Positions 9,446-48,249 of a stretch of DNA of 64,000 bases are shown one piece after another. The stretch is from Candidatus Termititenax sp. (lineage in GTDB: Bacteria; Margulisbacteria; Riflemargulisbacteria; GWF2-35-9; DYQY01). The position numbers and the translations under genes were made by a program. Where the stretch lies: assembly GCA_020719045.1 (NCBI GenBank), contig DYQY01000007.1, positions 1 through 64,000 of the forward strand. The letters run 5' to 3'. Position 1 is the first letter of the stretch, and each line of letters starts with the position of its first letter. The notes below the pieces were generated by a model. The model saw nothing but the letters and a program-made list of their open reading frames with translations, was not told the origin of the DNA and ran no database searches.

Positions 9446-9457
9446 AACTAACCCACT

Positions 9458-9501: not shown

Positions 9502-9780
9502 AAAAGATAACTCCAAAGTCTTCCCTAATGCTCGAGACACTTTTATTAGTGTTGACAATTTAACATCTTCACAATGCTTCTCAATCCTAGAAATAGCTGT
9601 TTTTTTTGTATGAACCTTTTCAGCAAGCTCTTCTTGCGACAAATTAGCCTTTGTTCGCTCTTCTTTTATCATTTCACCAATAACATGAAGTTTAAATTCC
9701 TCATATTCATCTTGATACTTATCAAATACTAAGGGATTAGTATTAATCTTCTCACTTTTGTATTGTTTATAAGTTTTCAT
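9496..9780 (-). CDS. XRE-family HTH antitoxin (HigA-like)
   Basis: HTH region NLSQEELAEKVHTKKTAISRIEKHCEDVKLSTLIKVSRALGKTLE. Confidence 0.85.
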   Translation of the reverse strand: MKTYKQYKSEKINTNPLVFDKYQDEYEEFKLHVIGEMIKEERTKANLSQEELAEKVHTKKTAISRIEKHCEDVKLSTLIKVSRALGKTLELSFK

Positions 9781-10133: not shown

Positions 10134-10338
10134 GCTATATATACTATACCCAATATTCCTAAAAGTAAACATGTAGGTTAACAATTGCAATAAAAAATCT
10201 AACACAAACAAAGCATTGATTAATTGTAATCAAGAACAACTAATGAAGAAGTAAAGAAAAACCTCTAATCTAAAAAACGTTGCCAATCCCGAGTGTAACG
10301 CTTAAACTTACTAATGAATAATCAATACAGAGGGATAA

Positions 10339-11124
10339 ATGGATTTAACTACTATTTTCGGTATTATTTCAGGGATAAGTCTAATTTTACTTGCTATATT
10401 TATTGATAGCGGACTTGGAATATTTATCTCAGTAACAAGTATATTAATCGTCGCTGGAGGCACAATAGCTGCCACGCTTATTAGTTATCCAATAGACGAA
10501 GTAATTAAAGTAATAAAAATAGCTGGCAAAGCTTTTTATGCAAACATTAAAGAGCCAACATTTCACATGATTGAACTGATAAATCTTGCGGGAACAGCAA
10601 AAAGAGAAGGTTTTCTACATTTACCCAATCATGCAAAAAAACTAAATGATTTTTTTATTTTAAAAGGCATACAAATGCTTGCTGATGGAATCCCCAGACA
10701 AGAAATAATCAGAGCATTAAATACCGAGATCACAATAATGCAATCACGTCACAAGCTTGGACGTGAAATATTCCAAGCAATGGGAGTATTTGCTCCTGCC
10801 TTTGGCTTAATAGGAACATTAATAGGACTAGTTCAAATGCTCTCTAACCTTAGCAATCCAAGTGCCCTCGGTCCTGGAATGTCAGTAGCAATATTAACAA
10901 CATTTTATGGTGCAGTACTTGCAAACCTTCTTTTTATACCATTAGCAAACAAACTTAAAAGAAGAAGCGAACAAGAATTCTTAATAATGCAGATATCAAA
11001 AGAAGCCATTTTAAGCATTCAAGCAAAAGAGTCTATTACCTTGCTTGAGGACAAGCTCTCTTCTTACATTTCTAGATCTTTGCAACAATCTTTAAAACGA
11101 AGCAAAAATAATAACAATGAATAA
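10339..11124 (+). CDS. motA: flagellar motor protein MotA
   Basis: MotA/PomA-like: MGVFAPAFGLIGTLIGLVQMLSNLSNPSALGPGMSVAILTTFYGAVLANLLFIPLANKLKRRS. Confidence 0.92.
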   Translation: MDLTTIFGIISGISLILLAIFIDSGLGIFISVTSILIVAGGTIAATLISYPIDEVIKVIKIAGKAFYANIKEPTFHMIELINLAGTAKREGFLHLPNHAKKLNDFFILKGIQMLADGIPRQEIIRALNTEITIMQSRHKLGREIFQAMGVFAPAFGLIGTLIGLVQMLSNLSNPSALGPGMSVAILTTFYGAVLANLLFIPLANKLKRRSEQEFLIMQISKEAILSIQAKESITLLEDKLSSYISRSLQQSLKRSKNNNNE

Positions 11125-29567: not shown

Positions 29568-32111
29568 ATGGGAAAAGAAAAAAACATTACTGTAACAGCT
29601 AATGATCAAAACAAAACCATTAGACTTGAAAATCCCAATCTTAAAATAGTCTCTAAACAAGGAGAACAGATCTCCGTCCACAATTTCTTTGAACTGTTTA
29701 ACACAATTGATAGAACAAAAAGAATCAAGAAACAATTAGACAAAGAAATCAGCATGCTAAAAAGAATCAAAATATCCTTCCAAAAGAAACTTAATAAATT
29801 CAAAATAGCAAAACTATTAAGCATTCGAAAGATTAAAGAACAAGAAACTTATCTAATAAAACACTATGAAGAAATAGTTTCTAAAATGAAAAACAAGGCA
29901 CACGAGGAAATATCAGCTCAATTTAATGAATTTAAAAAAGAAATAGCTTCAGAAAAAAATAAAATGATAGAAGAAATAATTATAGAAAATAACATAATTT
30001 CTAAAAACATAAAGAAATCAGAAGAACTCCTTAACAATCAAATATCAGACTTTAGAAACGATATCTACAAGGACAAAAATGAACTTATTAGCGCAGTTGA
30101 AACAAAAACTACTGATTCTCTTAACAGAATTAGTAATGAAAACATTAAACAAGAAAATAAACTAAAATCTGTTGAAGAAAACATAACAAACCAACAGCAA
30201 CAATTAAATAAATACTTTGAACAAATCAAAACTGATACAGTTAAAACAATTCAATCTACTCAAGCAGACACTATTGCAACTATTGATTCTAAAAATGAAA
30301 TAATTTCCAAAAAACTCAATTCAATTAATAATTCAATGGCTTCGCTTCAAGAAAAAATGATTAAAGAAATTAATGAAGCTAAAGAAAATGCCTTGCAAGA
30401 AATGGATGACACTGGTACTAGCAGAGAAAACTTCAAAAAATTTACTAAAATAAGTCAAGATTACATAAAAAACAGCATAAGTGGAGCATTAGAAGAAATA
30501 GAAACATTAAAAGATTCGCTAGCTTCTGAACTTACCGCAATAACAACATCAACAACCAAAGCGGTTTCAGACATTTACAACTCAGCTAAAGTTCAAGAAG
30601 AAATAATAAAAGAAGAGCTAACTTCTCTTAAAACAGAGACACAAAACGAACTGCTGGCTTTCTCTACACAAACAAAACAAGATAGCGCAAGCAATTTAAA
30701 AGCTATCCTTCAAAACATAGAAGAATTTAGCCAAGCCACAAAAGAAGAAATAAAAACTTTAACTACAAAATTTGAAAAAGAACAAGATTTAATGCTAAAA
30801 AATTCATACAACGACTTGCTTAGACTACAAGCAAAACTAAAAGAAATAGACAAAACAGAAGAAATAAATGCAATCCATGAAGAATTTAGAGAACTAAAAA
30901 TGCAAAACGAAATAACACTTGAAGACATTAAGTTTGCCAATGAACAAGCGCTAATAAACAGCAAAAATGAACTTATCAATCAAATGGATGAAATTAAATC
31001 AGCGAATACAGAAAGCATAGAAGCCATCAAAGATCAGCTTATAAAACATGAACAATTTTTCTTTAATCAAATAGAACAAAAAGCCCAAAATTTATTAAAC
31101 AACTCCAAAGAAGAGAATAAAAAACAACTTCAAACCGCAGATGCAATTCTTAGTAACCTCAAACAATCAACCGAACAAGAAATTAAAATTATTAAGGATG
31201 AACTTCAAGAAGAAAAACTCAAGCTAGTTGAGGCTGAAATGTCATATTTAGAAGGACTTAAGGTAGAGCTTCTAGAAAAAGCAGAAACACAAATAAACGA
31301 AACAACTACACTCATAGAAAACTTCAAGCTTGCAATAAGTAAATCTCAAGAAGACCTACAAAATAAAAACAAAGAACACTTTAGTCAATTAAAAAATGAT
31401 GCCAATAATAAAATACAAGAGCAACTAAATAACACTCAGCTACACATAGAAACTATTAAACAAGAATCAATTAGAAGCATTAATGAAGTAACACAAGGAA
31501 TTGAAGATGAACAAAAAGCACTAAGCAAGATAATTATTCAGGTAAAAACAATCAAAACTACATTAGAAACTGGTGTATTTGCTGACCTTGAAAATACACT
31601 TAAAACAATTGAATCAATAAAAGAAAACAATGAACAAAACATTAATAGCATAAAACAAGAAAACCTAGCAACTCAACAAGAAAGCATTAAGCAGCTTAAA
31701 ACAATAGTTGAAAGCACAATCGACACACATTTACAAAAAGCTTTAGATAAAATTGACTCACTACAAGATCAGCTTAAAGCTGAAAAAATACAACTTACCG
31801 AATCGAGCATTAAGCTTAACAAACTTCAATCTCAAACACAGCAAGAGCTTTATGAGCAACTTGAAAAAACACTAACAAACGTTAATTCCATCAAAGAAGA
31901 AGCAGAATCTTCCATGAAGCAACTAAAGAGTGAATCTTTTACAGAAATACTTAGCATCAAAAAAGGCTTACACCAAGTTATTTCCTATCTTAAAAAACAA
32001 AGAATACAATCAGAAAAGAAGATACTAACTCCAACCGTAATTACCAAAAAAGAAACTGAAGATAAAGACGAACTAATAAATATGCTACTTAAAGAAGGAC
32101 TAAGTCTATAA
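29568..32111 (+). CDS. long coiled-coil protein of unknown function
   Basis: 847 aa, E/K/Q/N-rich and heptad-like nearly throughout; no transmembrane or enzymatic motif seen. Confidence 0.7.
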   Translation: MGKEKNITVTANDQNKTIRLENPNLKIVSKQGEQISVHNFFELFNTIDRTKRIKKQLDKEISMLKRIKISFQKKLNKFKIAKLLSIRKIKEQETYLIKHYEEIVSKMKNKAHEEISAQFNEFKKEIASEKNKMIEEIIIENNIISKNIKKSEELLNNQISDFRNDIYKDKNELISAVETKTTDSLNRISNENIKQENKLKSVEENITNQQQQLNKYFEQIKTDTVKTIQSTQADTIATIDSKNEIISKKLNSINNSMASLQEKMIKEINEAKENALQEMDDTGTSRENFKKFTKISQDYIKNSISGALEEIETLKDSLASELTAITTSTTKAVSDIYNSAKVQEEIIKEELTSLKTETQNELLAFSTQTKQDSASNLKAILQNIEEFSQATKEEIKTLTTKFEKEQDLMLKNSYNDLLRLQAKLKEIDKTEEINAIHEEFRELKMQNEITLEDIKFANEQALINSKNELINQMDEIKSANTESIEAIKDQLIKHEQFFFNQIEQKAQNLLNNSKEENKKQLQTADAILSNLKQSTEQEIKIIKDELQEEKLKLVEAEMSYLEGLKVELLEKAETQINETTTLIENFKLAISKSQEDLQNKNKEHFSQLKNDANNKIQEQLNNTQLHIETIKQESIRSINEVTQGIEDEQKALSKIIIQVKTIKTTLETGVFADLENTLKTIESIKENNEQNINSIKQENLATQQESIKQLKTIVESTIDTHLQKALDKIDSLQDQLKAEKIQLTESSIKLNKLQSQTQQELYEQLEKTLTNVNSIKEEAESSMKQLKSESFTEILSIKKGLHQVISYLKKQRIQSEKKILTPTVITKKETEDKDELINMLLKEGLSL

Positions 32112-32116: not shown

Positions 32117-34018
32117 CTATTCTGTAGGCAGATCACCAGCTCCACTTAATCCTTGGGGTCCTTGACTCAATAATTGCTGCAGCTGCGACATCTGTTCTGG
32201 AGACATTCTACTACCAGCTAGTTGACTACCTTCAGACTCAGCAGGTTTCATAGCATCAAATAAGCCCTTACGAGTAATTTCTTTTCCTTGTTGCACTCCA
32301 ATATAATCCAAGCCCTTTTTGATATCAATAGCAACATCTTCTGCAGATTTACTTCCAACACGAGAATACCTTGGATTATTAGAAGAATCTTTACCATACC
32401 TAATATTCATAAGGTAAGCCAAAATATCATCCTCCTTGCTAAAAATAGTTTCTCCTATCTTAAAAGATTTTAATTGCACACCTTCAGTTTTTAAAAGTTT
32501 CAAAACATCATCTTCAGTAACTTTTGCCTTAAAATCTTTATTACTTTCAGCATTAAATATCCTTGGCTTCTCTGCTAATATTTCGTTTGTCAATTCTACA
32601 GTAAAAACTTCTTCCTGACTCTTAGGTTTGTTATCACCATATTTAGCTTCTATCCTATTAGCCACAAAATGCGCTAATGCCTCTAACTTATCGTACGCAT
32701 TGTCCCAAAACTTCCAGAAATAGTCGTGTGTTTCATTAACTAAAGCAATTATAGACTTCTTTAAATCAAGAATGAACATGCCCATTAATTCCTTATCTCC
32801 AGTAATTGACTTATATATACCCTGATAATATTTTTTAAGTTCAGGATGACTCTCCCAAAAAGCTTTAGACCTTCTTGTATCAAATATATTACTAAAATTT
32901 TTTATTTTATCTTCTGTCCAAAAATCATACTTCCATCCTGGTCGACTAGTAAATTCTATAAAACCTCCAAGCGCCGTTTTATATTTACCTGGGTTATATC
33001 CATTTTCATCAACACCAACTCCAAGAATACTTGGTGTATTTAATTCACCGTTATCGTAAACTATATTAACTACCCAAGAAGCGACTTCACCATCATTCTT
33101 AGTTGACGCTGTTTCAGAAAATGACTTCAAAAAATTTGGTGAAATACGTTTAATGTCTGATGCTTGTGCACCCCAAATATTGCCACCCGATTTCACCCCT
33201 TTAAAAGCTGTTACTGACTCGACAAAACGCACCCATGCCTCACTAGACTTTTTTTGATCCAATCCACCCCAAAATTTAGAAGTACCTATGCCAGACATTA
33301 ATTTATCTACAGCTCCCTTTAATAACTCCTTTTGGTCATTGTTCGCAAATTCTACTATGCTATTAACATTACTAGTACCAATCGCAAGCACCAATAAAGC
33401 AACTCTCTTCTTAAACTCAGGACTACTTATGTTATCCTTAAAACCCAAAATATTAGCTAATTTAGTATAAACTTCTGGTTTCAAATTTACATCTATATAT
33501 TTATCTGGAACAATAACATTATCTGTTGAAGGTTCTGCTTTACTAGCCAACGCACTTGCTTCTGTTGCACCTGCAGCAGCAGCTCCTAGAGTAGTAGAGT
33601 CTGGCATTAAAACTGCTGTTTCAATACCTAACATATCTCTTAAATGATCATCTATTGTTTTACCTGCTTCAGAAAAATTAACTATCCCCTTATTATTACT
33701 AACACCTGTATTTGTTTCTTTATTATATATTGCTGTTTGAAGTGTTGTTTCGGTTATTGGAGATGTAAGTGCAGCTCGAAATTCTGAAAGCCCTTTTGAA
33801 GTAAAAAACTCATCACCACCACCCTCACTGCTCATCAAATCAATAACTTGTGTAAGAAGACTTGAATTACTCTTTAGTATAGTTGCTAATTCAGATATTT
33901 TAGGCTCAATTGCACTAGCGCCAAGGATCTTTGTAGCCAAAACTGTAGTATTCATCGTTCTTGATGAGGTAATTGCAGATAAAGAATTTTGAATATTTGT
34001 ACTATTAATCTCTGTCAT
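32117..34018 (-). CDS. hypothetical protein, S/T/N-rich N-terminus, no signal peptide
   Basis: ORF track; SD-like aaggggag upstream of ATG. Confidence 0.65.
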   Translation of the reverse strand: MTEINSTNIQNSLSAITSSRTMNTTVLATKILGASAIEPKISELATILKSNSSLLTQVIDLMSSEGGGDEFFTSKGLSEFRAALTSPITETTLQTAIYNKETNTGVSNNKGIVNFSEAGKTIDDHLRDMLGIETAVLMPDSTTLGAAAAGATEASALASKAEPSTDNVIVPDKYIDVNLKPEVYTKLANILGFKDNISSPEFKKRVALLVLAIGTSNVNSIVEFANNDQKELLKGAVDKLMSGIGTSKFWGGLDQKKSSEAWVRFVESVTAFKGVKSGGNIWGAQASDIKRISPNFLKSFSETASTKNDGEVASWVVNIVYDNGELNTPSILGVGVDENGYNPGKYKTALGGFIEFTSRPGWKYDFWTEDKIKNFSNIFDTRRSKAFWESHPELKKYYQGIYKSITGDKELMGMFILDLKKSIIALVNETHDYFWKFWDNAYDKLEALAHFVANRIEAKYGDNKPKSQEEVFTVELTNEILAEKPRIFNAESNKDFKAKVTEDDVLKLLKTEGVQLKSFKIGETIFSKEDDILAYLMNIRYGKDSSNNPRYSRVGSKSAEDVAIDIKKGLDYIGVQQGKEITRKGLFDAMKPAESEGSQLAGSRMSPEQMSQLQQLLSQGPQGLSGAGDLPTE

Positions 34019-34255: not shown

Positions 34256-35212
34256 TTAAGCTAACCCAATATTCCATCGTGCAAAACTATCTCCGACTTT
34301 AGTAAACACTTCGCCATTACCAGTTGAATCAAAAACATTCCTTGCCTTATCAAGATCATTTTCTACAATAGCTCCTTTTAAAATAGCAATATCTTCAGCA
34401 CCTAAACCCAACAAAGCTAATTGAGGTTTATATTCAGCTAAAACTCTTGCAATATTACTCTTTTCATTGAGTGCGCTATAAATATCGTTATTAATATTAT
34501 TTTTCATGTTTGTAACAGCTTGCTCCAAGGAATCTCGTTGACATAAAGTTATTGAAACACCTAGTCCTTCTAACAAAGCTGAAATACCCTCAGCCCCAGA
34601 CTCATCACCAGTTGCTATTTTAGCCATTAATGCCTTCAATAATCCCTTTGCTTCCTGTTTTTTCTCATCAGCTTTTTCTGCCATTAATTTAAGCATCTCC
34701 ATCCACATCTGATGATTCTTTTCCATAGCTTCAATTATCATCTTCACTACTTCGCTTCTCGATTCTAATGCTATTTGAAATATTTCCATTATTATTCTAT
34801 TGCTTGCCTCATTCTTTGGATCAAAACTATTAACCAAAAACTGACTTAATCCTGAATATACTTTCTGATCTTCACCTTTTGATAAGTTCGAGACTATTGC
34901 TGTTTTACCTTCTTTATCAACGTTAACATCAGCTGTCTTTATTCCAGCTTTTGCAAGCCTATCTCCTAAATCATTTAATAACTTAGTTGCATTAGGATTA
35001 CTATCCCCAAAAAGAAGATTAGCCAAAATTATCTTTTGCTGGTCTGGAGTCTTTCCTGAAAATGGATTACTTCCACCTTCCCCATCATTACTAGTCTTAA
35101 CACTAAAAGTTACGCCGTTAATAATAACAGTTAATTGTTGTTGAGAAACATTACTAGATTGCCTTGCTTCGTAAGCCTTTGTTGTACTATTAACGCCAAA
35201 TTGTTCAGTCAT
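34256..35212 (-). CDS. hypothetical protein, S/T/Q-rich N-terminus, no signal peptide
   Basis: ORF track; SD-like ataaggggata upstream of ATG. Confidence 0.65.
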   Translation of the reverse strand: MTEQFGVNSTTKAYEARQSSNVSQQQLTVIINGVTFSVKTSNDGEGGSNPFSGKTPDQQKIILANLLFGDSNPNATKLLNDLGDRLAKAGIKTADVNVDKEGKTAIVSNLSKGEDQKVYSGLSQFLVNSFDPKNEASNRIIMEIFQIALESRSEVVKMIIEAMEKNHQMWMEMLKLMAEKADEKKQEAKGLLKALMAKIATGDESGAEGISALLEGLGVSITLCQRDSLEQAVTNMKNNINNDIYSALNEKSNIARVLAEYKPQLALLGLGAEDIAILKGAIVENDLDKARNVFDSTGNGEVFTKVGDSFARWNIGLA

Positions 35213-35378: not shown

Positions 35379-35885
35379 CTATTTAGCTAGGGTTGGAACA
35401 AATTCCTTAAAAAAATCCCAAGCATAAACCGTATTTAATAACTTATAAGCAAATGAATTAATTAGGTATGCTCCTATTGGACTTATTGTTATCTTGGATA
35501 CTAACACTAATACAATAAAAATAAGCAATGTCCACTTAAGGAAGTTCAGGACTAGCCCAGCAACATTATTAAAGATACCTACGGGGCTTATTTGGAAAAT
35601 TTTTGTAATCAATCTTCCCCATAGTACAAAAAAAACAAAACTAGCCAAATAGGTCAAAATATACGCCACAAAGCCTGACCAAGAAACGGCAAACTTAAGA
35701 TACTTTGCCATCCATCCATTAACCACTAAGGAATACTTGTTTGCAGCATAGAAAGAAACTATTATTGCCAAGGAGTCAAACAAGATATTAATAAACCCAC
35801 TTACATAGCCTCGATAACTAAAAAATATTAATGCAATAACAACTGCTACATCAATAATATTAATCTTGGCAATAAATTCCATCAT
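35379..35885 (-). CDS. cvpA: CvpA family membrane protein
   Basis: INIIDVAVVIALIFFSYRGYVSGFINILFDSLAIIVSFYAA topology and sequence pattern. Confidence 0.75.
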   Translation of the reverse strand: MMEFIAKINIIDVAVVIALIFFSYRGYVSGFINILFDSLAIIVSFYAANKYSLVVNGWMAKYLKFAVSWSGFVAYILTYLASFVFFVLWGRLITKIFQISPVGIFNNVAGLVLNFLKWTLLIFIVLVLVSKITISPIGAYLINSFAYKLLNTVYAWDFFKEFVPTLAK

Positions 35886-36334
35886 TATGAATTCTTCATT
35901 TCCTCTTTATGAGCCAACAATCTTTCCTTCACAGCTGCTTCAGAAACACCAATAATCTGTGCCGCCAAAATAGCTGAATTCGCTGCTCCATTTATTGCTA
36001 CAGATGCAACAGGAACACCTTTTGGCATTTGAACGATAGAATACAATGAATCTACACCACCAAGGTCAGAAGTTTTCATAGGGACACCAATAACAGGAAC
36101 AATACAATGACCTGCAACAACACCTGGAAGGTGAGCTGCTTTTCCAGCTGCAGCAATTATTACTTTATATTTCTTGTGAGCATCTTCTACTAAGCCCATA
36201 ACCTTCTCTGGGTTTCGGTGCGCAGAAGCAACTTCTACTATACTTGTTAATCCAAACTTATCTAACATATCTATACATTCCTGCATAACTGGCATATCTG
36301 AACTACTTCCCATTATAACTAATACATCTTTCAT
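35885..36334 (-). CDS. purE: 5-(carboxyamino)imidazole ribonucleotide mutase
   Basis: MGSSSDMPVM, SAHRNPEK, AAAGKAAHLPGVVAG. Confidence 0.95.
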   Translation of the reverse strand: MKDVLVIMGSSSDMPVMQECIDMLDKFGLTSIVEVASAHRNPEKVMGLVEDAHKKYKVIIAAAGKAAHLPGVVAGHCIVPVIGVPMKTSDLGGVDSLYSIVQMPKGVPVASVAINGAANSAILAAQIIGVSEAAVKERLLAHKEEMKNS

Positions 36335-36346
36335 TATTTAACCTCC

Positions 36347-37042
36347 TTAAAATTCATAAATCACATTAACTTGTGAATTAACTTTCATTTCTCCAACTTG
36401 ATACTGCGTTGCTGTATCAGAAACTGCTAACGCTTTCATCTGCATGCCTTCCACTCTTAATGGTTGGACATAATCACCAGACTCATTAATCTCTTTTATC
36501 CTAATCTTTCCAATGTCCATCGTTTTTGCAATAAGCTGTGCTTTATCTTTTGCATCAATCAAAGCAAACTTTAAAGCTTTCTGCTTATACTCTTCTATTC
36601 TGGAACTCGAAAAACTTATCTGCCCTATATTATTCAAACCACTGTTCACTGCGACATCTATTACTTTACCAATTAACGTTATGTCTTTTAATATAATTCT
36701 TAAATTTTGATCAACAATATATCCCATGAATTGTCGCTTCCCAGCAACGTATTCATAACTATTATTGATACTTAGCCTTTCTGTAGATATATTCTCTTTA
36801 GCAACTAACGACTTAATCTTATTTGTAAAACCATTAACCTTTTCATTAACATCTTTCTGACCCTTAACAACGTCTTGATAAACTCCACTTACTCCAACTA
36901 AAACATAAGCGATATCTGGCTCAAAAGAAACTTCTGATTTTCCACTAACATTTATGGACTTATTATTATCTTCCTGTTCATAAGTGGTCCCTAATAATAA
37001 AAAAACACATATAAAAAAAACTACTACTATTTTCTTTGGCAC
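36347..37042 (-). CDS. SIMPL (DUF541) domain-containing exported protein
   Basis: Signal peptide plus INVSGKSEVSFEPDIAYVLVGVSG...ALKFALIDAKDKAQLIAKTMDI. Confidence 0.8.
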   Translation of the reverse strand: MPKKIVVVFFICVFLLLGTTYEQEDNNKSINVSGKSEVSFEPDIAYVLVGVSGVYQDVVKGQKDVNEKVNGFTNKIKSLVAKENISTERLSINNSYEYVAGKRQFMGYIVDQNLRIILKDITLIGKVIDVAVNSGLNNIGQISFSSSRIEEYKQKALKFALIDAKDKAQLIAKTMDIGKIRIKEINESGDYVQPLRVEGMQMKALAVSDTATQYQVGEMKVNSQVNVIYEF

Positions 37043-37072: not shown

Positions 37073-38269
37073 CTACAACAAAACGTTATCTATCGTCTTC
37101 CATAAACTATTTATAATTTGAATAGTCGTATCTTTGCCAACATTTTCCTGATAAACAACTCTAATACAATCATAATCAATAAAAAAAGTTAATGGACAAA
37201 CAGCTTCATTACAGGTTAATAAATAACCCCGCATGGAAACCTCTTGATTATAAGTCTGAAAAGAGACTAAAACAGAATATAAATGAGCTGGCAAAGAGAG
37301 TTTACTTATTGGAAACTGCTGATGCCTTAATGCTTCTTTAATCTTTTTCGAAATATTAACGAGCCCCAGATTCAATGGTTGATTGGATATATTTATTGGC
37401 AATGTGTTCACAAAAAGTCCAGGAGTACTTCTCTGTTTTTTATTTGTCCTATTTAATAAATGCACACCAAGACAAAAAGAATCAAGAAAATAAATTCTAC
37501 AAAACGTCTCACTAATAAGATAAAGCCACAAAACAAACTCTGAAACATTACTACTAATAGCTAATTCTCTTAATGCTTCTTTTTTTTCTTCATTAACAAA
37601 CATAAACTCTACCTTACTCTTCAAGTTGGTCTTATCTATCAATGAGAATACATTAATATTGCTTTGTTTATTACATAGTTCATCCTCCCAGTATTCTTTA
37701 TCCTTTTCCCAAATAGATGAACCAATATACTCCTTTTGCGAACGTAAATAATCTTTATAATCACAATCATCTAGGTTATATAAACTTACTACTTGATTAT
37801 TAATAAGCTGACTATAAATATCCATAACCCTGTTTGTTGTTATATTAATCCCATATAAATCAAATAATAAATGATGAGCTTTAATAAAATAAAAATTAGT
37901 TGCAGGTGAAATTATAATAGCAACATAAATCAATTTCTCGTCACTTACAAACATTGGCTCCCATGTTTTATTTTGCATCCACTCAATAGCTTTTTTGTCA
38001 TCCAAAACATTATCAATAAACTCACAATCACAAGCAACCATTTCTTCAAATATTTGATATGGATACCCGTCATCATCAACTAAAAACCTTGCCTTAAAAT
38101 TTGAAAAACTATTTATAGCTAAAAAACTAGCTTTAGCTAAAATTTGCAGATTAATACTTTTATCTAATTTACTATACCCAGCTACGCTCCACAAATTGCC
38201 TTTTGAAAACAACTGCTCGGCTATCCACATTTCTTCCTGCTGAATTGAAAGATTATACCTTTCCATCAT
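37073..38269 (-). CDS. stand-alone NRPS condensation domain protein
   Basis: LSIQQEEMWIAEQLF; active-site KAHHLLFDLYG; GLFVNTLPINIS. Confidence 0.85.
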   Translation of the reverse strand: MMERYNLSIQQEEMWIAEQLFSKGNLWSVAGYSKLDKSINLQILAKASFLAINSFSNFKARFLVDDDGYPYQIFEEMVACDCEFIDNVLDDKKAIEWMQNKTWEPMFVSDEKLIYVAIIISPATNFYFIKAHHLLFDLYGINITTNRVMDIYSQLINNQVVSLYNLDDCDYKDYLRSQKEYIGSSIWEKDKEYWEDELCNKQSNINVFSLIDKTNLKSKVEFMFVNEEKKEALRELAISSNVSEFVLWLYLISETFCRIYFLDSFCLGVHLLNRTNKKQRSTPGLFVNTLPINISNQPLNLGLVNISKKIKEALRHQQFPISKLSLPAHLYSVLVSFQTYNQEVSMRGYLLTCNEAVCPLTFFIDYDCIRVVYQENVGKDTTIQIINSLWKTIDNVLL

Positions 38270-41234
38270 TTATCTCCCTAAGAATCTTACCCCATTCATC
38301 TTTGCTACAAGGCAAGTAAGCACTCAAAATTAACTTATCTCCCTTTGTAGCTAAGCTAAATGTTATTGCCGATGGCCAAGTATTATTTGTCCATTTGCCA
38401 TCAATCGTACTATATAATTCTGTGCTCTCATCTACTTCCGTTCTGTAATGAAAAACAATAAAAGGCTCCAAAAGTTCTTTTTTCAAACTTACATTACTAG
38501 TGCCCTCATGAATTGTTGGATGCTTATACATATAGTTTAACCACTTTAAAGATTTAAAATTAGTAAGTGTTTTCGCCGCTTTTTTACGAATAAAATTTAT
38601 CTCATCAAATAACTCTTCTACATTCATGCCTTTTCTGAACACACAAGGAATAAAATCTGTAAATTCACCTATTGTTTTTACAAATCTACCTTCCTGATAT
38701 GCTCTTGTATCTTGAACCATAAAAAAAGGAGTATCAATATCAATCAACATTTTTGTTATCTTACTAAATATTTCTAACGACTGCATCAAACTATCCTGAT
38801 TGTCTTCTAAATCGAAAGCATGCTCATATAATGATAGATTATTCAATAGATACTTTGGAAAATCTGAGACTGCTCTATTAAATTCATCCAACTTAAACTC
38901 ACGAACAATCTCCTCTTCATTTAATAATGAACAATTTCTTAGCAACTTCAAATATTCTTCATACTGGACATTATTACCAATAGACCCTAAAAAGAAATAA
39001 CTTTTTAAAATATCAGCACCAACCTTATTATGAATAGACTCATCCATGCAAAAAACAAACAAATATCTAGTGTTAGTTACTCTAACGAAAATATGTCTAT
39101 AAGGAAAATCCTTCAATCTATCTTTGGCTAAATAATACTCTTTAATAAAAGGCAACATCTTCATTATTTGTGCTTCATTCAAACTCAATTCACTTAAATC
39201 TATCACCACTGAAGATACTTTATCCGGCATTTTAAAAACTGCCCAATAAAACTTATTGTGATTAGTAACCAAAGACGCTCGTAACAATTGCTGTTCACTC
39301 AACAAACAATTATGTCTCTCATTCAAAACATCAAACGAATAATCATTGCACCAGAGATAATCTATACTATACTTCTCGCGATACATATTTCTAAAGTTTA
39401 ACCTCCAAGGTTCAAGGTCTATTCTATCTTCAATACCACTTTCAATAAGTCTGTTAAAATATTCAATCTCCCTCTGCCTCAATTCCGACAATTTTGTCTT
39501 GATAAAGTCAGCTACTAGTGGCTTATCTTTTGTGCTATATTTATATGCAACCTCTTTTGATCCAGACGAGCTAACTAGCCTCAAAAAAGAGGTAATACTG
39601 TCTGCGGAATACATGTCAGCTATCTTTGTAGAAAAACCTATTTTCTGAAGCTTGTACATAATTCTAATCATCGACAATGAGTCAGCACCTTGCTCAACAA
39701 TACTTTTATCCATTACTATTTTTTTCCCTAAAACATCTTCTATTATTAATATAATCTGATTTGACCACGAATTATCCGAATTACTCAACTCATTTTGTTT
39801 CCAAAATAAACTAATTAACGCTTGCCTATCAATTTTTCCACCAATCGTCTTCGGCAATATCTCAAAATATAATATATCAGAAGGAATCATTTGTTCTGCT
39901 AATTTTGACTTCATCTCTGCAAAGAGAACCTTTCTATCTACTTCTGAAACTATAAAAATAACCAGTCTCGGAACGAAAATACTCTGACTAACATTTAGTA
40001 CAACAGCCTCTTTAACACCATTAATTTCTAACGAAACTCTGTTAATTTCAGCTAACTCTATTCTATAACCATTTACCTGTACTTGGTCATCTTCCCTACC
40101 CAAGAACAATAAATCTCCAGAAGACATTTTTTGCACCATGTCTCCAGTTCGATACCATTTCTTATCTTTTATGAATACAAACTTTTCCTCATTCATCTTT
40201 TCGTCTAGATAACCAAACGATACGCCCTCTCCGGCAATCAATAACTCGCCTCTGATCTCTTCTTGAACTTCAACTAAACTATCGTTTACTACCAAAACCT
40301 GTGTGTTTTTTAAAGGAGAACCTATTAACATTTGTGACCTAATACCCTCTAACTCAGCCATACTCTTTGCTTCATATACAACACTTTCTATCGTACACTC
40401 AGTTAATCCATATCCATTTATAACTCTAGCCTTAGGAAAACTCACTACTGCCCAACCAAAATCACTTCTTGAACATGCTTCTCCTCCAAAAATAATCTGC
40501 CTAATAAAGTCTGTATTTATTAAACTCGTTTTTGTTGCCTCAAGCAACAATCTTATATAGGATGGCGTTGATTCAACAATATTTGGTTTATATATATTAA
40601 TTATTTCCACCAAATAGCTAAGATTTAATTTGTCTTCCTTGTTAACAATAATCAATGTTCCAGCCCAAAAAAGTGATTTAATAAGGTTTCCAATGAACAT
40701 ATCTGTACTTATACTAGATAACTGTAAAACCTTGGGGGAAAAAGAATCCAATTTATAAAAATCTTGCCAGGCATCCATTAAACTTACAATATTGTCATAA
40801 CTAATCTGAACAGCTTTCGGAGTACCTGTCGAGCCAGAAGTAAACATTAAGTATGCTATTCTTTTTCCAAAATTAACACTTTCTTTTCCCGATAATTTTT
40901 TATGAAAAATCCCATCATTTTCCGCTATAATCAATTTAACTTTTGCTTGCTCTACATAAAAATCAATTCTTAATTCTGGAGTATCTTCATCTATAGTTAT
41001 CACAGTAGCACCTATTCTCCAAATAGCCAAAAAATAGGCTACAGCCATAAACGAGCATCTCATCTTTAAGGCTACAATATCACCTTCATTAATCCCCAAG
41101 CTTACAATTTCTTTGTAAATAACTTCTATTGTTTCCAAAAGATATTTATATGTATACTCTTTCTTTGCATAAATAATCGCAACCGATTCTGGATTACAGT
41201 TCGCTTTTTCTTCAAATTTCTTAAAAAATACCAT
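38253..41234 (-). CDS. NRPS, domains A-T-C*
   Basis: A motifs LMFTSGSTGTPKAV, NGYGLTE, YRTGDMV, GGKIDRQAL; carrier EQGADSLSMI; C-terminal condensation-like region with DESIHNKVG in place of HHxxxDG. Confidence 0.9.
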   Translation of the reverse strand: MVFFKKFEEKANCNPESVAIIYAKKEYTYKYLLETIEVIYKEIVSLGINEGDIVALKMRCSFMAVAYFLAIWRIGATVITIDEDTPELRIDFYVEQAKVKLIIAENDGIFHKKLSGKESVNFGKRIAYLMFTSGSTGTPKAVQISYDNIVSLMDAWQDFYKLDSFSPKVLQLSSISTDMFIGNLIKSLFWAGTLIIVNKEDKLNLSYLVEIINIYKPNIVESTPSYIRLLLEATKTSLINTDFIRQIIFGGEACSRSDFGWAVVSFPKARVINGYGLTECTIESVVYEAKSMAELEGIRSQMLIGSPLKNTQVLVVNDSLVEVQEEIRGELLIAGEGVSFGYLDEKMNEEKFVFIKDKKWYRTGDMVQKMSSGDLLFLGREDDQVQVNGYRIELAEINRVSLEINGVKEAVVLNVSQSIFVPRLVIFIVSEVDRKVLFAEMKSKLAEQMIPSDILYFEILPKTIGGKIDRQALISLFWKQNELSNSDNSWSNQIILIIEDVLGKKIVMDKSIVEQGADSLSMIRIMYKLQKIGFSTKIADMYSADSITSFLRLVSSSGSKEVAYKYSTKDKPLVADFIKTKLSELRQREIEYFNRLIESGIEDRIDLEPWRLNFRNMYREKYSIDYLWCNDYSFDVLNERHNCLLSEQQLLRASLVTNHNKFYWAVFKMPDKVSSVVIDLSELSLNEAQIMKMLPFIKEYYLAKDRLKDFPYRHIFVRVTNTRYLFVFCMDESIHNKVGADILKSYFFLGSIGNNVQYEEYLKLLRNCSLLNEEEIVREFKLDEFNRAVSDFPKYLLNNLSLYEHAFDLEDNQDSLMQSLEIFSKITKMLIDIDTPFFMVQDTRAYQEGRFVKTIGEFTDFIPCVFRKGMNVEELFDEINFIRKKAAKTLTNFKSLKWLNYMYKHPTIHEGTSNVSLKKELLEPFIVFHYRTEVDESTELYSTIDGKWTNNTWPSAITFSLATKGDKLILSAYLPCSKDEWGKILREINDGKV

Positions 41235-41278
41235 TTTATTATGCCTCGATAACCCTTTTTGTTAATCTAAATAATATA

Positions 41279-44200
41279 TCACTGAGGATCTCTAATTTCA
41301 GTATACTTAGTTTCAAATGCCTGTCTAATCTCATTTGCATTGACTTGATAAGGAAATCTAATAAAAACCTCACAAACGCCATCTACTACTGTTACATTAA
41401 AGCTTATACCATATAGCCATCTATTTATAGCACTTTGATCATCACTAAAAACTTCATCTATACTTATATCCCCTTGTTTAAAATTAAACAAAAGCAGTCT
41501 GTTTGTCTCTTCTAATTTGCCAACTATTTGCTTAACTCTCCTTGAGAACGGATTACTCTTTAAATTTTTGTTAAATAATAGATTCTTAAAATGAATACCA
41601 TTTTGATTAACAACTTCCAAAATCGAATGAATATTTACTATATTATCTTCAGCTGACAAAGTAGTATCCACTATAACTGGAACCCCATCAATAAATGCTC
41701 CGATACTATTCGCAAGGGATTCTGCATCAAAAAACCTTGTGTTATGAAGCATAATTATTGGAATATTTGTAAAAGGGAAATGACTCTTTGCAAACACCAA
41801 AAACAAATTCATCGCAACATTTAACTCATTAATCTCACTCTTATTTATAACAATTTTGTATCTAAAGGATGAATGCTTTTTTTGCTTACAAATTTTCTTA
41901 GACAAAAACTTAGAATAAATATTAATATGCTTAATAAACTCATCTAGGCTTAACTCCGACAAAAGATTTTCCTGGTTAGATAACCCAGAATTTATTATGA
42001 ATCTATGTATGTATTCCTTGTAACCAATAGACTTAGGATATTCCTTAAACCCATCATTAGCTACACTAATTAAATAATAATTAATAAGCATGTTTCCATA
42101 GTCATCATGAATACTATCATCCATGAAATAGTATAAAAAAGTTTCACTTAGATTAAATTTAACTACAATTGCTCTAAACGTAAACCTTCTTAGATTATTA
42201 TTAGAAGAAAAATATTCATTTAAAACACTATAGACAAAATCGTAGCTTGAAAATACTTCATAACTAGACAAATCTAAAACAGGAATACAGCAGTCACTTT
42301 CAGAAAAAATCTCCCAACTATATTTCATTAACCCATTTTTTACTAAACCAGCCCGAAGTAAATCATTTTTACTCATTAACTCACTTATTGCTCTACTTAT
42401 TTCTAAAATTTTATTATCATCAATCCTAATCAGCGAAACAAAATAGACATTTCTATAAAACTTCCTTAAGTCACTAGAATACAAAGGATCCTCTAATTTA
42501 TAAGAAACACCACCAGAAATAAGTTTATTAAACAATTCTACCTCTTGTTTATTTACTTTTACCAGCAACTCCTTTGCCTTATTAGCATCAATAACTTTGT
42601 AATCCTTATCCATCAAATATTGTGGTTGAATATTATTAGAAAATCTCTGCTTACAAAAGTCTATTATTCCCTGTTTATTCAAAAAACTCTTGTCTTCAGA
42701 CACATACAAATAGCTAATTTTTTTGGAAAGTTTTTCATTATATACATTCTTTACCAAAACACCTTCACCAAAACACCTTAACAAAACAACATTAGCTCTG
42801 TCTAAATCACTAATTTTATCTCGCACAATAAATGTGCTGTAAAAATCCTCTAAAGAAAAACTTCTATATATATCAAGATAACTACACTTATAGCCTAATC
42901 CATTTAGTTTGGAAGCTATTTTAATTGCTTCTAATGAGTCAGCTCCCATCTGAATAAAACTCATTGATGCAACAAACTTCGCGCCTAAGACTTCCTTCCA
43001 CACGCTTAATACTAGACTCTTATCAAAGGACAAAATGTCCCCTTCAGGCAATTTACTTACTGGAATAATTAATTTCATCTCAGCTAGTATCTTTCTATCC
43101 ACCTTACCATTAGCTGATATTGGCATTTCATCTAACCTACAAAAAAAGTTAGGCACCATATAGTCTGGCAACAACTCCTTTAACCTTAGCACAAAGTTTA
43201 TATGTGATATTTCCTTGCTAGACTGATAATAGGCAACTATTACTTTACTATCATACACATCTTTTGTAACAACTATAGCTTTTACATGAAAAAGCTTCTC
43301 GATACATGATTCTATTTCACCTGGTTCAACTCTGTATCCACGTACCTTTATTTGAAAATCCTTTCTGCCAATAAACTGTATATTCCCATCACTGAGTAGT
43401 CTAACTAAATCACCAGTTCGATAAACTCTACCAATATCGTCGATATCTATAAACTTTTGCTTTGTTAACTCACTAGAAGTATATCCAGCAGCTAACCCAT
43501 AACCATAAATAATTAGCTCTCCATCTACTCCTACACCGACCTGCCTTAAATCCTCATCTAGGACATACATTTTTGTATTTCTAAATGGCTTTCCAATTGG
43601 CAAGTTCCCATATAATGGCAATTTGCAATCTTTGCATAAAAAATAATCGCTACTATAGATTGCAGCCTCAGATACCCCATATGAATTTATTACCATTGCT
43701 CTATTCAGATACCTTGCATTTAGTTTCCTAAAATCCTCGACAGAGCAAATATCCGACCCAACTACGACTAACTTTATGGTACTATCGTCAACATTTTGCT
43801 TTTCCATATAACCCACCAATAATGAAATTAACGAAGGTGTGGAATCTAAAACATTCACATTATAGTCTTCTATCATACGTGAAAGTGAACTAAGGCTGTG
43901 TCTCTCATCCTCAGTGGGGAGAACCAAGGTACCACCAGTGCAGACAGTCTTTAAGTAATTTCCAATAAACACATCATGTGCAAATGAAGATGTCTGCAAA
44001 AGCACAAACTCTTCTCCAACAATTTTGTATTTAAACTCCCACGCTTCTAATACATTCACAACAGCTCTGTGCGTATTTATTACGCCTTTAGGTTCACCTG
44101 TAGATCCAGAGGTATAAACCATATAACAAGGTGAATAATCTTCAACATGCTCTTTAGTAAAAATCTGAAAAGAATCTGTGATACTCTCAAACAATACTTG

Positions 44201-45889
44201 TTTACATACAACATCCAATAAGCTATCAGTTACCAATAACATACTTTTGCTATCCTCAATAATCTTCTGTATTCTCTGGAGTGGGTCATTTTTGCTAATT
44301 GGTAAAAAAACAGCCCCACACAAAAATATTCCTGTAATACAAGCTATCATGTCTACCGAATAATCCATGATAACAGCGACTCTATCACCAACCTTAACTC
44401 CTTGGCTTTGCAAATATCCTGAAACCCTGTAAGATATCTCAAAAAGTTGATCATATGAATATGACCTTCCATTACAAATGACAGCTGTGTTTATATGCTT
44501 TCTGTTTGCTACATCCTCTAACACAGAACATAAATTGTCTTTATATAGAATTGCTTCAGTATCATTCATTTTTCTAATAATCTCTTGCTCAATATTTGTT
44601 AAAATTCTAATGTCTTTTAAATTACTAAAGCTTTCACTTATTATCTGATTAAAAAACAATCTGAACTTCTGAACAAATATTTCCATATCTTCTTCAGAGA
44701 AAAGACTCTCATCAAAGTACATACTCATAACTACTTTTTTTTGTATTTGGAATTCTCTTACTCGAACATCCAATGAACATTGAATCATCCCGTTAAATAA
44801 CGTGATAACTTCTGAGGAAAATCCTCCCGTTAGATAATTATGGTCATGAGGTTCATATGAAAAATTAATTGATTCTCCAAGGTCATATCCCTCAGAAATC
44901 GCTCCTTCATAAAACTCCTTCCAAGAACACTTCTGGTGCCGATAACCTTCTTTTAAATCGTTTGAAATACTTGCAAATAAAGAGCTTAAATTGTCACCTA
45001 TTTCAACCATAACAGGCGCAATACTAGCAAAACAACCTAAGCTACATTTTTGTGGCTTTGACAATCTATTCTGAAGCCGAACATTTAATAAAACCTTGTT
45101 TCTAGATGTCCTAGCTCTAATAATTAACATAAACACAGCAATAAAGAAATTAAAAATACTTATATTATTCTCACTGCAATACCTTAAAATTGTTGCATAC
45201 TCCTCTGAATCTATCTCTACCTCTTTTGCAATTGCAGAAGCGACTATATTCTTTCGCTTTATATTTGAAGCTGACCAGTTGTACTCTTTGAGTAACTTAA
45301 CTTTATCTTTCCAAAACTTGCTATCACTTATATATTTTGCAGAATTAAAATACTCCTTATCTTGGTCTAAAAATTCAAAAAAAGAAAAATTGTGTGAAGG
45401 AGAAAACGCACTTCGTTTAATCTTGTCGTAATACTCAGCTATCTTATGTGCCGTTATTGCAATACTAAACCCATCAGCAATTAAGTGACTATACACTGAA
45501 TAACAATAGGAATTATTATCCGTTAACAAAATTCCTATCTCAAACAACTTACCACTCTGTAAATCAAATGGAGTCTTCATTCGATTTGCCACCCAGTCTT
45601 CGCAAGCTTTTTCTGGATTAATCTCATTACTAAAGTCTCTAACAACTACCTCAGTCTCTATATCAGCAACCTCTTGTAAGTATTCACCATTCTCATTGCG
45701 CACAAAAAATGTTTTAAGGATATTATTTTCTTCACACACTGCTCGCACAGCTCTTCTAAATATTGCATAATCCATTCTGCCATGAATAAAAATATACCCA
45801 CCAATATTTAAGTGTGGAGAATCAATAGCTAAAAACTGTTCATTTAAATATTGTTTCTGGATGTAACTTAAAGGAAATCTGTTTGCCAT
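41279..45889 (-). CDS. NRPS, domains C-A-T-C*
   Basis: C domain YSHLIADGFS; A motifs MVYTSGSTGEPKGV, NSYGVSE, YRTGDLV, NGKVDRKIL; carrier MGADSLEAI; C-terminal condensation-like region with DDSIHDDYG. Confidence 0.92.
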   Translation of the reverse strand: MANRFPLSYIQKQYLNEQFLAIDSPHLNIGGYIFIHGRMDYAIFRRAVRAVCEENNILKTFFVRNENGEYLQEVADIETEVVVRDFSNEINPEKACEDWVANRMKTPFDLQSGKLFEIGILLTDNNSYCYSVYSHLIADGFSIAITAHKIAEYYDKIKRSAFSPSHNFSFFEFLDQDKEYFNSAKYISDSKFWKDKVKLLKEYNWSASNIKRKNIVASAIAKEVEIDSEEYATILRYCSENNISIFNFFIAVFMLIIRARTSRNKVLLNVRLQNRLSKPQKCSLGCFASIAPVMVEIGDNLSSLFASISNDLKEGYRHQKCSWKEFYEGAISEGYDLGESINFSYEPHDHNYLTGGFSSEVITLFNGMIQCSLDVRVREFQIQKKVVMSMYFDESLFSEEDMEIFVQKFRLFFNQIISESFSNLKDIRILTNIEQEIIRKMNDTEAILYKDNLCSVLEDVANRKHINTAVICNGRSYSYDQLFEISYRVSGYLQSQGVKVGDRVAVIMDYSVDMIACITGIFLCGAVFLPISKNDPLQRIQKIIEDSKSMLLVTDSLLDVVCKQVLFESITDSFQIFTKEHVEDYSPCYMVYTSGSTGEPKGVINTHRAVVNVLEAWEFKYKIVGEEFVLLQTSSFAHDVFIGNYLKTVCTGGTLVLPTEDERHSLSSLSRMIEDYNVNVLDSTPSLISLLVGYMEKQNVDDSTIKLVVVGSDICSVEDFRKLNARYLNRAMVINSYGVSEAAIYSSDYFLCKDCKLPLYGNLPIGKPFRNTKMYVLDEDLRQVGVGVDGELIIYGYGLAAGYTSSELTKQKFIDIDDIGRVYRTGDLVRLLSDGNIQFIGRKDFQIKVRGYRVEPGEIESCIEKLFHVKAIVVTKDVYDSKVIVAYYQSSKEISHINFVLRLKELLPDYMVPNFFCRLDEMPISANGKVDRKILAEMKLIIPVSKLPEGDILSFDKSLVLSVWKEVLGAKFVASMSFIQMGADSLEAIKIASKLNGLGYKCSYLDIYRSFSLEDFYSTFIVRDKISDLDRANVVLLRCFGEGVLVKNVYNEKLSKKISYLYVSEDKSFLNKQGIIDFCKQRFSNNIQPQYLMDKDYKVIDANKAKELLVKVNKQEVELFNKLISGGVSYKLEDPLYSSDLRKFYRNVYFVSLIRIDDNKILEISRAISELMSKNDLLRAGLVKNGLMKYSWEIFSESDCCIPVLDLSSYEVFSSYDFVYSVLNEYFSSNNNLRRFTFRAIVVKFNLSETFLYYFMDDSIHDDYGNMLINYYLISVANDGFKEYPKSIGYKEYIHRFIINSGLSNQENLLSELSLDEFIKHINIYSKFLSKKICKQKKHSSFRYKIVINKSEINELNVAMNLFLVFAKSHFPFTNIPIIMLHNTRFFDAESLANSIGAFIDGVPVIVDTTLSAEDNIVNIHSILEVVNQNGIHFKNLLFNKNLKSNPFSRRVKQIVGKLEETNRLLLFNFKQGDISIDEVFSDDQSAINRWLYGISFNVTVVDGVCEVFIRFPYQVNANEIRQAFETKYTEIRDPQ

Positions 45890-45930: not shown

Positions 45931-46200
45931 TCAGTATCTTATTTGAAATCCAACATAGTCAGAAACAACGTCTTCTATCTGCCTGAGCTCTTGTATATTA
46001 TCATGAAAATACAAATCTACTGCCCTTATAAAAGATTCTAAACTAAGCTCTTCTCCTTGCGCAAAAGCTTCTACAGTACCGTCTGGAACGTTCCTGACCC
46101 AACCAACGATGTTGTATTTATCAGCTATTTTTTTAACGGTAAATCTAAATCCTACACCCTGAACCTTACCAAAGTATTTCAGTTGGTAAGCATTCTTCAT
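45931..46200 (-). CDS. acyP: acylphosphatase
   Basis: GKVQGVGFRFTVKKIADKYNIVGWVRNVPDGTVEAFAQGE. Confidence 0.92.
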   Translation of the reverse strand: MKNAYQLKYFGKVQGVGFRFTVKKIADKYNIVGWVRNVPDGTVEAFAQGEELSLESFIRAVDLYFHDNIQELRQIEDVVSDYVGFQIRY

Positions 46201-47282
46201 TTAATAATTCCGCCCCCAATAACCACATCTCCATCATAAAAAACAACAGACTGGCCTGGCGTAATTGATAGTTGTGGCTTCTCAAACTTTACAAGCACTT
46301 CACCATCTTCAAGAGGCTCGATATAAGCATTTTCATCTTCATGCTGATACCGAATTTTTGCAGTTATATTCATGGGAATAGTTAATTCTTCTATTGATAT
46401 CCAATTCATATCCTTAGCTCTAAAACTATCACCATATAAATCCTCTTTTGTTCCAACCTGTACCTCGTTATTGTCCTTGTTAATTCCAATAACATAAAGA
46501 GGCTCATGATAAGCAACACCCAATCCTTTTCTTTGACCAATTGTAAAATTAAAATATCCTCTATGTTTACCTAAGACAGCTCCACCAGGGCCAACAATAT
46601 TGCCTTCTTTTGCTTCTATATCAATTATCTGTGAATAATCACCTGAAATAAAATTCTGGCTCTCTGGAATATGCTCAAAACCTAGCTCCTTCTGCTTTGC
46701 AATAAGACGAATATCATCTTTAACCAAACCACCAAGTGGGAACATACACTTTGATAACTGCATTTGCGTTAATCTATATAGAAAATAACTCTGATCTTTC
46801 TTTGGGTCTATTCCCTTTAATAACAAATATCGTCCAGACTTGTCATTGTATTCTGTTCTTACATAATGACCTGTAGCAAATTTGTCCAAATCTGGAGAAT
46901 TCTCAATCACCTTATCAAGCAGCAAACCAAACTTCATTTTCGCATTACAAACAATGCACGGATTTGGGGTTCTACCTTCTTTATACTCATCTGAGAAGTA
47001 TTTTAGAACTATCTCTGCGTATTCTTCTTTAAGGTCTATTACCTGATAAGGAATACCTATCTTGGCACACACCTCTTTGGCTTTCTTAATATCTTGTTCT
47101 TCATCAGGACCAAAACAAGCGTGCTTCCCCTTATACTCTTCCAGTAACTGACCATTCCAAATACTCATAGTTACACCAGTTACATCATATCCCTTGTCCT
47201 TCAACATAGCAGCAGTTACAGATGAATCCACGCCACCACTCATACCAACAAAGACCTTTAAATTCTCTTTACTTAAACTCAC
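46197..47282 (-). CDS. mnmA: tRNA 2-thiouridylase MnmA
   Basis: GMSGGVDSSVTAAMLKDKGYDVTGVTM, TPNPCIVCNAKMKFG. Confidence 0.95.
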   Translation of the reverse strand: MSLSKENLKVFVGMSGGVDSSVTAAMLKDKGYDVTGVTMSIWNGQLLEEYKGKHACFGPDEEQDIKKAKEVCAKIGIPYQVIDLKEEYAEIVLKYFSDEYKEGRTPNPCIVCNAKMKFGLLLDKVIENSPDLDKFATGHYVRTEYNDKSGRYLLLKGIDPKKDQSYFLYRLTQMQLSKCMFPLGGLVKDDIRLIAKQKELGFEHIPESQNFISGDYSQIIDIEAKEGNIVGPGGAVLGKHRGYFNFTIGQRKGLGVAYHEPLYVIGINKDNNEVQVGTKEDLYGDSFRAKDMNWISIEELTIPMNITAKIRYQHEDENAYIEPLEDGEVLVKFEKPQLSITPGQSVVFYDGDVVIGGGIIK

Positions 47283-48249
47283 TTACTGGCTCCAATCCTA
47301 GTTCTCTTAGCATCTGCTTATCGTCTTCTGCCTTATTACCCTTAACTGTAAGATAATTACCCACCAAAATCGAATTTGCTCCTGCCTTAAATATCTCATT
47401 TTGTCTTTCACCCAAACTGCTTTCTCTACCACCGAAAACACCAATTACTTTATTTGGCATCAAAAACCTAAAGGTTGCTATTATTTTTAAAACTTCGTTA
47501 ACTTCCAACTTCTGCGTTTTACCATATATTTTAGTTCCTTCTATTGGGTGCACAATATTTATCGGCACTGAATCAACATCTAACTCGGAAATAGCCATTC
47601 CAAGCTCCACTCTTTGCTTTGCAGTTTCGCCTATCCCAAAAATCCCACCAACACAAACTTTAAGTCCTGCAGACTTTGCATTCTTAATTGTTTCTATTCT
47701 ATCTTGATACATATGCGTATTACACATATTAGGGAAAAAAGATTCAGCTGTTTCTAAATTATGATGGAACTTCTCTAACCCAGCTTCCTTTAATTTCTTT
47801 GCCTGCTCTAAAGATAGTAGCCCCAAAGAAGCGCATTTCTTTACTCCTGAAATATCTTTAACAACATCTAATATTCTTTCCATTTCCTGTGAGCTTGAAA
47901 TATATCCTTTTCCAGATGTAACAATAGAGAAACATCCTGTATCATTTTCTTTTGCAGACTCTACAGCTTGTAAGATTTTCTCTTTAGAAAGTAACGGATA
48001 CTCTTCTACATTTGTTTTATGATGTGCAGATTGTGCACAAAAGGAACAATCCTCACTACATTTACCCGACTTGGCATTAATAATTCCACAAAGGATTACT
48101 TTATTGCCAAAAAACTTCTCTCTAAGTCTGTTAGCGTAATCTAAAAGCTCTGACAAATCGTTATTTGATGTATTAATTAATTCGAAAGCTTCATCAGAAG
48201 TCAACTTCTGACAATTTTCTGATTTAGTATAAATAGAGAACATACTCAT
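47269..48249 (-). CDS. bioB: biotin synthase
   Basis: GKCSEDCSFCAQSAHH; HHNLETAESFFPNMCNTHMYQDR. Confidence 0.95.
   Translation of the reverse strand: MSMFSIYTKSENCQKLTSDEAFELINTSNNDLSELLDYANRLREKFFGNKVILCGIINAKSGKCSEDCSFCAQSAHHKTNVEEYPLLSKEKILQAVESAKENDTGCFSIVTSGKGYISSSQEMERILDVVKDISGVKKCASLGLLSLEQAKKLKEAGLEKFHHNLETAESFFPNMCNTHMYQDRIETIKNAKSAGLKVCVGGIFGIGETAKQRVELGMAISELDVDSVPINIVHPIEGTKIYGKTQKLEVNEVLKIIATFRFLMPNKVIGVFGGRESSLGERQNEIFKAGANSILVGNYLTVKGNKAEDDKQMLRELGLEPVSEFK

Follow-up and report, generated by a model that had tools for sequence, protein, structure and literature searches.

Here we describe a compact nonribosomal peptide synthetase (NRPS) locus of three genes in a 64,000-nucleotide stretch of DNA from Candidatus Termititenax sp. 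(assembly GCA_020719045.1, contig DYQY01000007.1, positions 1 to 64,000; hereafter, the window). The host belongs to a deep, uncultivated order that is sibling to the Cyanobacteria. NRPS loci are usually patchy accessories spread by horizontal transfer. This one is ordinary as an NRPS; what is unusual is its vertical conservation and a divergent domain of the condensation superfamily, here called C*, that closes two of its proteins. We judge it somewhat probable that the locus encodes a compact, thioesterase-free acyl-aminoacyl synthetase, vertically inherited, in which C* performs the terminal or transfer step.

All three open reading frames (ORFs) lie on the minus strand: ORF1 encodes condensation (C), adenylation (A), carrier (T), and C* domains in that order, ORF2 encodes A-T-C*, and ORF3, which overlaps ORF2 by 17 nt (38253-38269), is a stand-alone C domain. 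The ORF coordinates and domain calling with Pfam hidden Markov models bear out this layout, which had been claimed in an earlier reading of the letters without database searches (the sequence-only reading), together with its claims of intact A and T domains and of an opening condensation step. Pfam detects in ORF1 an N-terminal Condensation domain (2.5e-46; 9e-48 in the genome-wide search), AMP-binding (1.2e-61), and PP-binding (0.0028, subthreshold, with the GADSL serine present); in ORF2, AMP-binding (6e-54) and PP-binding (0.0014, likewise below the cutoff, with the GADSL serine present); and in ORF3, Condensation (1.3e-39). Both A-T units thus hold the core of an NRPS, with A3, A5, and the carrier serine intact. 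Across the whole genome, Pfam Condensation returns two matches only, the N-terminal C domain of ORF1 and ORF3.

We compared the only seven genomes that represent the order in our collection (G000 to G006). G000, the genome of the window, is a Margulisbacteria metagenome-assembled genome (MAG) of 1.75 Mb that is 99% complete, and G001 belongs to the same genus; named relatives in the order are Candidatus Marinamargulisbacteria MAGs and Margulisbacteria GWF2_35_9. The same three genes occur in the same order in G001 at 49 to 55% identity (ORF1 being broken over two contigs), and for most genes of the near flanks (a few kilobases, cvpA to dapL) identity between the two genomes is 55 to 91%. Codon position 2 of the NRPS genes is conserved at 0.74 to 0.77 between G000 and G001 and position 3 at 0.43 to 0.48, while position 3 of four flanking genes is conserved at 0.45 to 0.59. 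Because position 2 stands well above position 3, and the latter near the level of the flanks, the NRPS genes are under purifying selection. The three-gene locus is not a product of chance, and that selection is strong.

The chromosomal place of the locus is also conserved: in six of the seven genomes, bioB/mnmA and/or purE lie next to it. G000 and G001 share the gene order mnmA-acylphosphatase-NRPS-SIMPL-purE-cvpA; G002 and G005 have bioB and mnmA on one side and SIMPL-purE-cvpA on the other; bioB-acylphosphatase-mnmA lies nearby in G006 and bioB in G004; and the NRPS locus of G003 lies in a different genomic context. Gene content ranges from the three genes of G000 and G001 to a single C-A-T-C*, with no second condensation locus, in G002 and G005, and to C-A-T plus a separate C* in G003. 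The simplest reading is a single ancestral locus inherited vertically within the order. Its fixed place in most of these genomes, and its presence in one of 1.75 Mb, suggest a core role for the product, as a signal, a membrane lipid, or a metal binder. The locus is a real, conserved, and probably active NRPS.

Pfam calls no domain on either C* of the window proteins. A 10-row C* profile, however, matches solved C domains (E of 2e-4), and Pfam Condensation, at a cutoff of E <= 1, picks up 5 of the 10 family members, the best of them at 1e-9. When an AlphaFold2 (AF2) model of C* (pLDDT 74, pTM 0.67) was submitted to Foldseek, all 50 matches listed were of the C superfamily (C, epimerization [E], heterocyclization [Cy], terminal condensation [CT], and related domains), at E values of about 1e-13. 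As modeled, C* has the CAT-like two-lobe fold and is a member of the condensation superfamily. The claim that both proteins end in C domains therefore stands as to superfamily but not as to ordinary C domains: the canonical HHxxxDG is replaced by (D/N/S)(E/D)(S/A)I(H/D)(D/N), and the position of the second, catalytic histidine is acidic in all 10 C* sequences of the order.

All seven genomes of the order that we compared carry C*; a further 68 genomes of the Margulisbacteria phylum have none. Plasmid records yielded three further C* only, two in one Paenibacillus (sp. IHB B 3084) and one in Eleftheria terrae, and it is to these that the motif above was aligned. Their proteins share with our locus the order A-T-linker-C* and membership of the C* clade; they differ in keeping HHxxxD (SHxxxD in one), in having other A domains, and in forming part of larger assembly lines. 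In our maximum-likelihood (ML) tree, the 13 C* lie on one side of a 100/100 branch from the E, DCL-like, LCL-like, and N-terminal C domains, and the tree, so rooted, groups the acid-motif C* together (100/99) inside the histidine-bearing C*. Given this nesting, the acid state is probably derived. The acid may be a base, an amine-binding residue, or a relic; a streptothricin C domain functions with an altered motif, HQxxxDM (PMC11546977). C* relatives that carry HHxxxD or an acid in the same domain order provide a natural test of the debated role of the catalytic histidine. A similar gene set (A-T-C*, A-T-E-C, A-T-C, and a protein of roughly 300 amino acids) was observed on Paenibacillus sp. 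IHB B 3084 plasmid pHD01 (L064:12694-25531) and in Eleftheria terrae (L068:1234-14101).

Among the Foldseek matches listed for C*, the highest TM scores (0.45 to 0.49, too low for assignment) were those of CT domains, which are fungal (e.g., TqaA CT and the hydrolytic IvoA CT). C* has the terminal position of a CT domain, but the fold match is weak and the HxxxDxxS that CT domains keep (PMC11546977) is absent, an acid standing in place of the histidine. In ORF1, T and C* are separated by a small alpha/beta linker that may be a degenerate form of the A-domain C-terminal subdomain, with an hhalign probability of 26% and a low-confidence resemblance in AF2 topology; the second AF2 model, spanning T, linker, and C*, is itself of low confidence (pLDDT 67, pTM 0.49) and serves as a hint only. 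The same linker is found in G001, G006, Paenibacillus, and Eleftheria.

RzmA-Cs (7c1h, 7c1k), which acylates aminoacyl thioesters using an acyl coenzyme A (acyl-CoA) donor (PMC7804268), is the best solved relative of the ORF1 N-terminal C domain, of ORF3, and of the G002 C domain. Other leading matches of these three include ObiF1, EntF, CDA C1, and VibH, and among solved domains ORF3 ranks RzmA-Cs first, then CDA C1, VibH, and EntF. An internal C domain of G004, our control, matched TycC and other elongation domains, with RzmA-Cs not listed at E < 1e-20. All N-terminal C domains of the order form one clade with ORF3 in the ML tree (100/100), and every one of them, like ORF3, retains the second, catalytic histidine. 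We assign the ORF1 N-terminal C domain and ORF3 to the acyl/aryl starter type with moderate confidence. Since they resemble acyl/aryl starter domains, an acyl donor is likelier than an aminoacyl one, a choice that the sequence-only reading had left open. With the starter domains RzmA-Cs, CDA C1, EntF, ObiF1, and VibH both share the second histidine and the motif aspartate, but identity is low, the first histidine of the ORF1 domain is a serine, and ORF3 is free-standing. Free-standing and starter-related, as ORF3 is, are also the C domains of the OaaC type, which form fatty acid amides and bear (D/H)HxxxDS; HHxxxDS of this type appears in the N-terminal C domains of G002, G003, G005, and G006. 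OaaC, however, works on free amines with a dedicated acyl carrier protein (ACP), whereas our locus has A-T units and no adjacent ACP gene.

Two types of A domain recur in the order, with pocket codes taken by motif reading rather than from a trained predictor. Type A, DVGD(I/V)(V/L/M)(S/T)IY, occurs in G000 (ORF1), G001, G002, G004, G005, and G006, and type B, D(M/V/A)GE(I/V/L)(F/V/I)G(I/V)E, in G000 (ORF2), G001, G004, and G006. In the A-domain tree the two types form clades at 99/96 and 90/94 within a joint clade at 100/99, and each spans both families. Of the published codes that we could compare, the nearest is that for ornithine, DVGEIGSIDK (PMC3992020). Both window pockets have the D-x-G-(D/E)-...-I framework of ornithine-activating domains but differ from that code at positions 301 and 331, and ORF1 differs also at 278. 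The substrates of the two A domains may be basic and ornithine-like, a suggestion in which we place low confidence. A type B domain of G006 (MFRH01000068.1, locus 5880-10811, plus strand), followed by T and C*, carries, after its N-terminal part and before the SGTTG motif, an insert that combines radical SAM (PF04055) and B12-binding (PF02310) domains, although an assembly error is possible; two genes that by eye resemble radical SAM/B12 enzymes flank it. A literature search for A domains interrupted by radical SAM gave no matching case. G003 has a B12-binding, radical-SAM-like gene, so identified by eye (7009-8262, minus strand), about 2 kb from its C-A-T and lone C* genes.

How would such a synthetase be primed and its product released? 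A thioesterase domain for release is common in NRPSs but not indispensable. Pfam detected no PF00975 thioesterase in G000, the three ORFs included, and neither 4PPT_N (Sfp) nor MbtH in that genome. A single ACPS match, in a 147-amino-acid frame, provides the only phosphopantetheinyl transferase (PPTase) detected, and carriers with GADSL resemble ACPs, which would suit charging by AcpS. As no PF00975 was detected, release falls to C*, to an enzyme outside these models, or to a spontaneous reaction. The one Sfp detected in the seven genomes is an Sfp-type PPTase in G004 that accompanies a separate large NRPS-type gene (C57, L027:3119-11708).

In the acyl-aminoacyl synthetase that we favor, AcpS would charge the GADSL carriers. 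Of two related amino acids, one would be loaded by the A domain of ORF1 and the other by that of ORF2. The starter C domain of ORF1, and ORF3 acting in trans, would acylate the loaded residues from an acyl or aryl thioester of CoA or ACP. The C* after each T would then stand in for a thioesterase at the last or transfer step. It might, for instance, hand the acyl-aminoacyl chain to the amine of the second unit, to a small amine, or to an amine in a side chain (which would give a lactam), and the acid at the histidine position would bind or deprotonate the acceptor amine. Such a pathway would yield an acylated dipeptide or a small N-acylated amino acid. A bolder proposition, that C* is a distinct functional class with a carboxylate for the catalytic histidine, carries out thioesterase-free acyl-aminoacyl transfer or release, and is central to a pathway inherited vertically throughout the order and primed by AcpS only, is one that we hold tentatively and consider rather doubtful.

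Several points weigh against the synthetase model. The starter type is deduced from a sequence ranking at low identity, and of the 10 positions in the ornithine code the pockets share only about 6. The immediate neighborhood of the locus holds no gene for acyl activation, transport, or tailoring. Loss of the histidine could equally mean that C* is noncatalytic, release could be due to a thioesterase that has diverged or to a hydrolase from a different family, and in one cluster the Paenibacillus C* precedes further modules, where it may serve for coupling and not for release.

The likeliest alternative is a colinear dipeptide line in which ORF1 starts, residue 1 is joined by the ORF1 C* to residue 2 carried on ORF2, and either the ORF2 C* or ORF3 is responsible for releasing or capping the product. 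The succession ORF1-ORF2-ORF3, its short gaps, and the overlap speak for such a line, as do the presence of both A lineages together in four genomes and the Paenibacillus precedent, where A-T-C* before A-T-E-C and A-T-C means that a C* at the end of an upstream protein can mark a module boundary. We nevertheless consider it fairly unlikely: C* has no catalytic histidine in 10 of 10 order sequences, ORF3 is of starter rather than elongation type, and a line of this kind does not fit the single C-A-T-C* of G002 and G005 or the split C-A-T and C* of G003. The main correction concerns the dipeptide-derived product proposed in the sequence-only reading. Because ORF2 and ORF3 together supply the set of starter C, A, T, and C* that ORF1 carries in one chain, two parallel acyl-aminoacyl stations fit equally well; a dipeptide is possible but not required, and G002 and G005 make do with one C-A-T-C*.

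Less probable still is a noncatalytic C* that, in the manner of an X domain, serves as a platform recruiting a partner to the T-bound residue, with release left to a spontaneous reaction or a distant hydrolase. The loss of the catalytic histidine speaks for such a platform, and X domains, which carry the altered motif HRxxxDD and recruit P450s, set a precedent for both features (PMC11546977); the radical SAM and B12-binding domains within the C*-bearing protein of G006 and the nearby gene of G003 could be read as partners. Yet the C* motif differs from HRxxxDD, no P450 gene was seen beside the locus, and neither G000 nor G001 has any candidate partner gene there. The altered motif, moreover, is conserved (acid in 10 of 10, then I-H/D-D/N) at about 25% overall identity, as a working site would be. 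Two further identities were rejected. C* is very unlikely to be a Cy domain, for although DESIHD resembles DxxxxD and 6 of 10 C* have the full motif, four have N for the second D or N/S for the first, C* follows T instead of preceding A, the A domains have no Cys/Ser/Thr-type pocket, and Cy domains score lower in Foldseek (TM 0.35 to 0.40, against 0.45 to 0.49 for CT) and are missing from the profile matches. An E domain, which would occupy the same place at the protein end after T, can practically be dismissed, as HHxxxDGxSW is absent from C* and the E references form a separate clade (100/98) across the 100/100 branch.

The sequence-only reading recognized no known pathway here, and that still holds relative to the plasmid and genome collections and the literature that we searched, MIBiG and antiSMASH comparisons lying outside that scope. 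No place among 72,556 plasmid records reached 80% coverage of ORF1. A contig scan with a single peptide pattern, which cannot show absence elsewhere, found four loci, all in the same order. Literature on NRPSs and biosynthetic gene clusters in Margulisbacteria gave nothing concerning this locus, and none of the NRPS terms sought occurs in the main text of the paper on Ruthmannia eludens, a placozoan symbiont and Marinamargulisbacterium with a 1.51-Mb genome (PMC6784892).

Table 1. Features of the NRPS locus and its flanks, in window coordinates
Feature	Positions	Strand	Basis and remarks
ORF1, NRPS C-A-T-(linker)-C*	41279..45889	-	1536 aa; G001 orthologue on two contigs, 53% identity
ORF1 N-terminal condensation domain, putative starter type, motif SHLIADG	44582..45883	-	Pfam; best solved relative RzmA-Cs
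ORF1 adenylation domain, pocket DVGD-V-V-S-I-Y	43079..44518	-	Pfam, pocket motif, tree; limits approximate
ORF1 carrier (T) domain	42875..43012	-	GADSL serine aa 985 = window 42935-42937; limits approximate
ORF1 small alpha/beta linker, T to C*, possibly a degenerate A-domain C-terminal subdomain	42608..42808	-	Weak evidence
ORF1 C* domain, condensation superfamily	41282..42571	-	Profile, AF2/Foldseek, tree
ORF1 C* active-site motif DDSIHDDYG, replacing HHxxxDGxS	42095..42121	-	Alignment
ORF2, NRPS A-T-C*	38253..41234	-	993 aa; G001 orthologue 55% identity
ORF2 adenylation domain, pocket DMGE-I-F-G-I-E	39810..41216	-	Pfam, pocket motif, tree; limits approximate
ORF2 carrier (T) domain, GADSL	39576..39758	-	Pfam and sequence
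ORF2 C* domain	38256..39497	-	Family alignment, genome scan, tree
ORF2 C* motif DESIHNKVG	39018..39044	-	Alignment
ORF3, stand-alone condensation domain, putative starter type, motif HHLLFDL	37073..38269	-	398 aa; Pfam; RzmA-Cs best; N-terminal C clade
Acylphosphatase-like gene between mnmA and ORF1, conserved synteny, outside pathway	45931..46200	-	By eye
mnmA and bioB, syntenic flank, outside pathway	46197..48249	-	Sequence by eye
SIMPL, purE, cvpA, syntenic flank, outside pathway	35379..37042	-	Pfam and synteny

Elsewhere in the window, at 29568-32111, lies an 847-amino-acid coiled-coil-like protein with no Pfam match. Beside it are two more proteins without a Pfam match (32117-34018 and 34256-35212), which are only 28 to 35% identical to their counterparts at the same position in G001 and evolve far faster than their neighbors.
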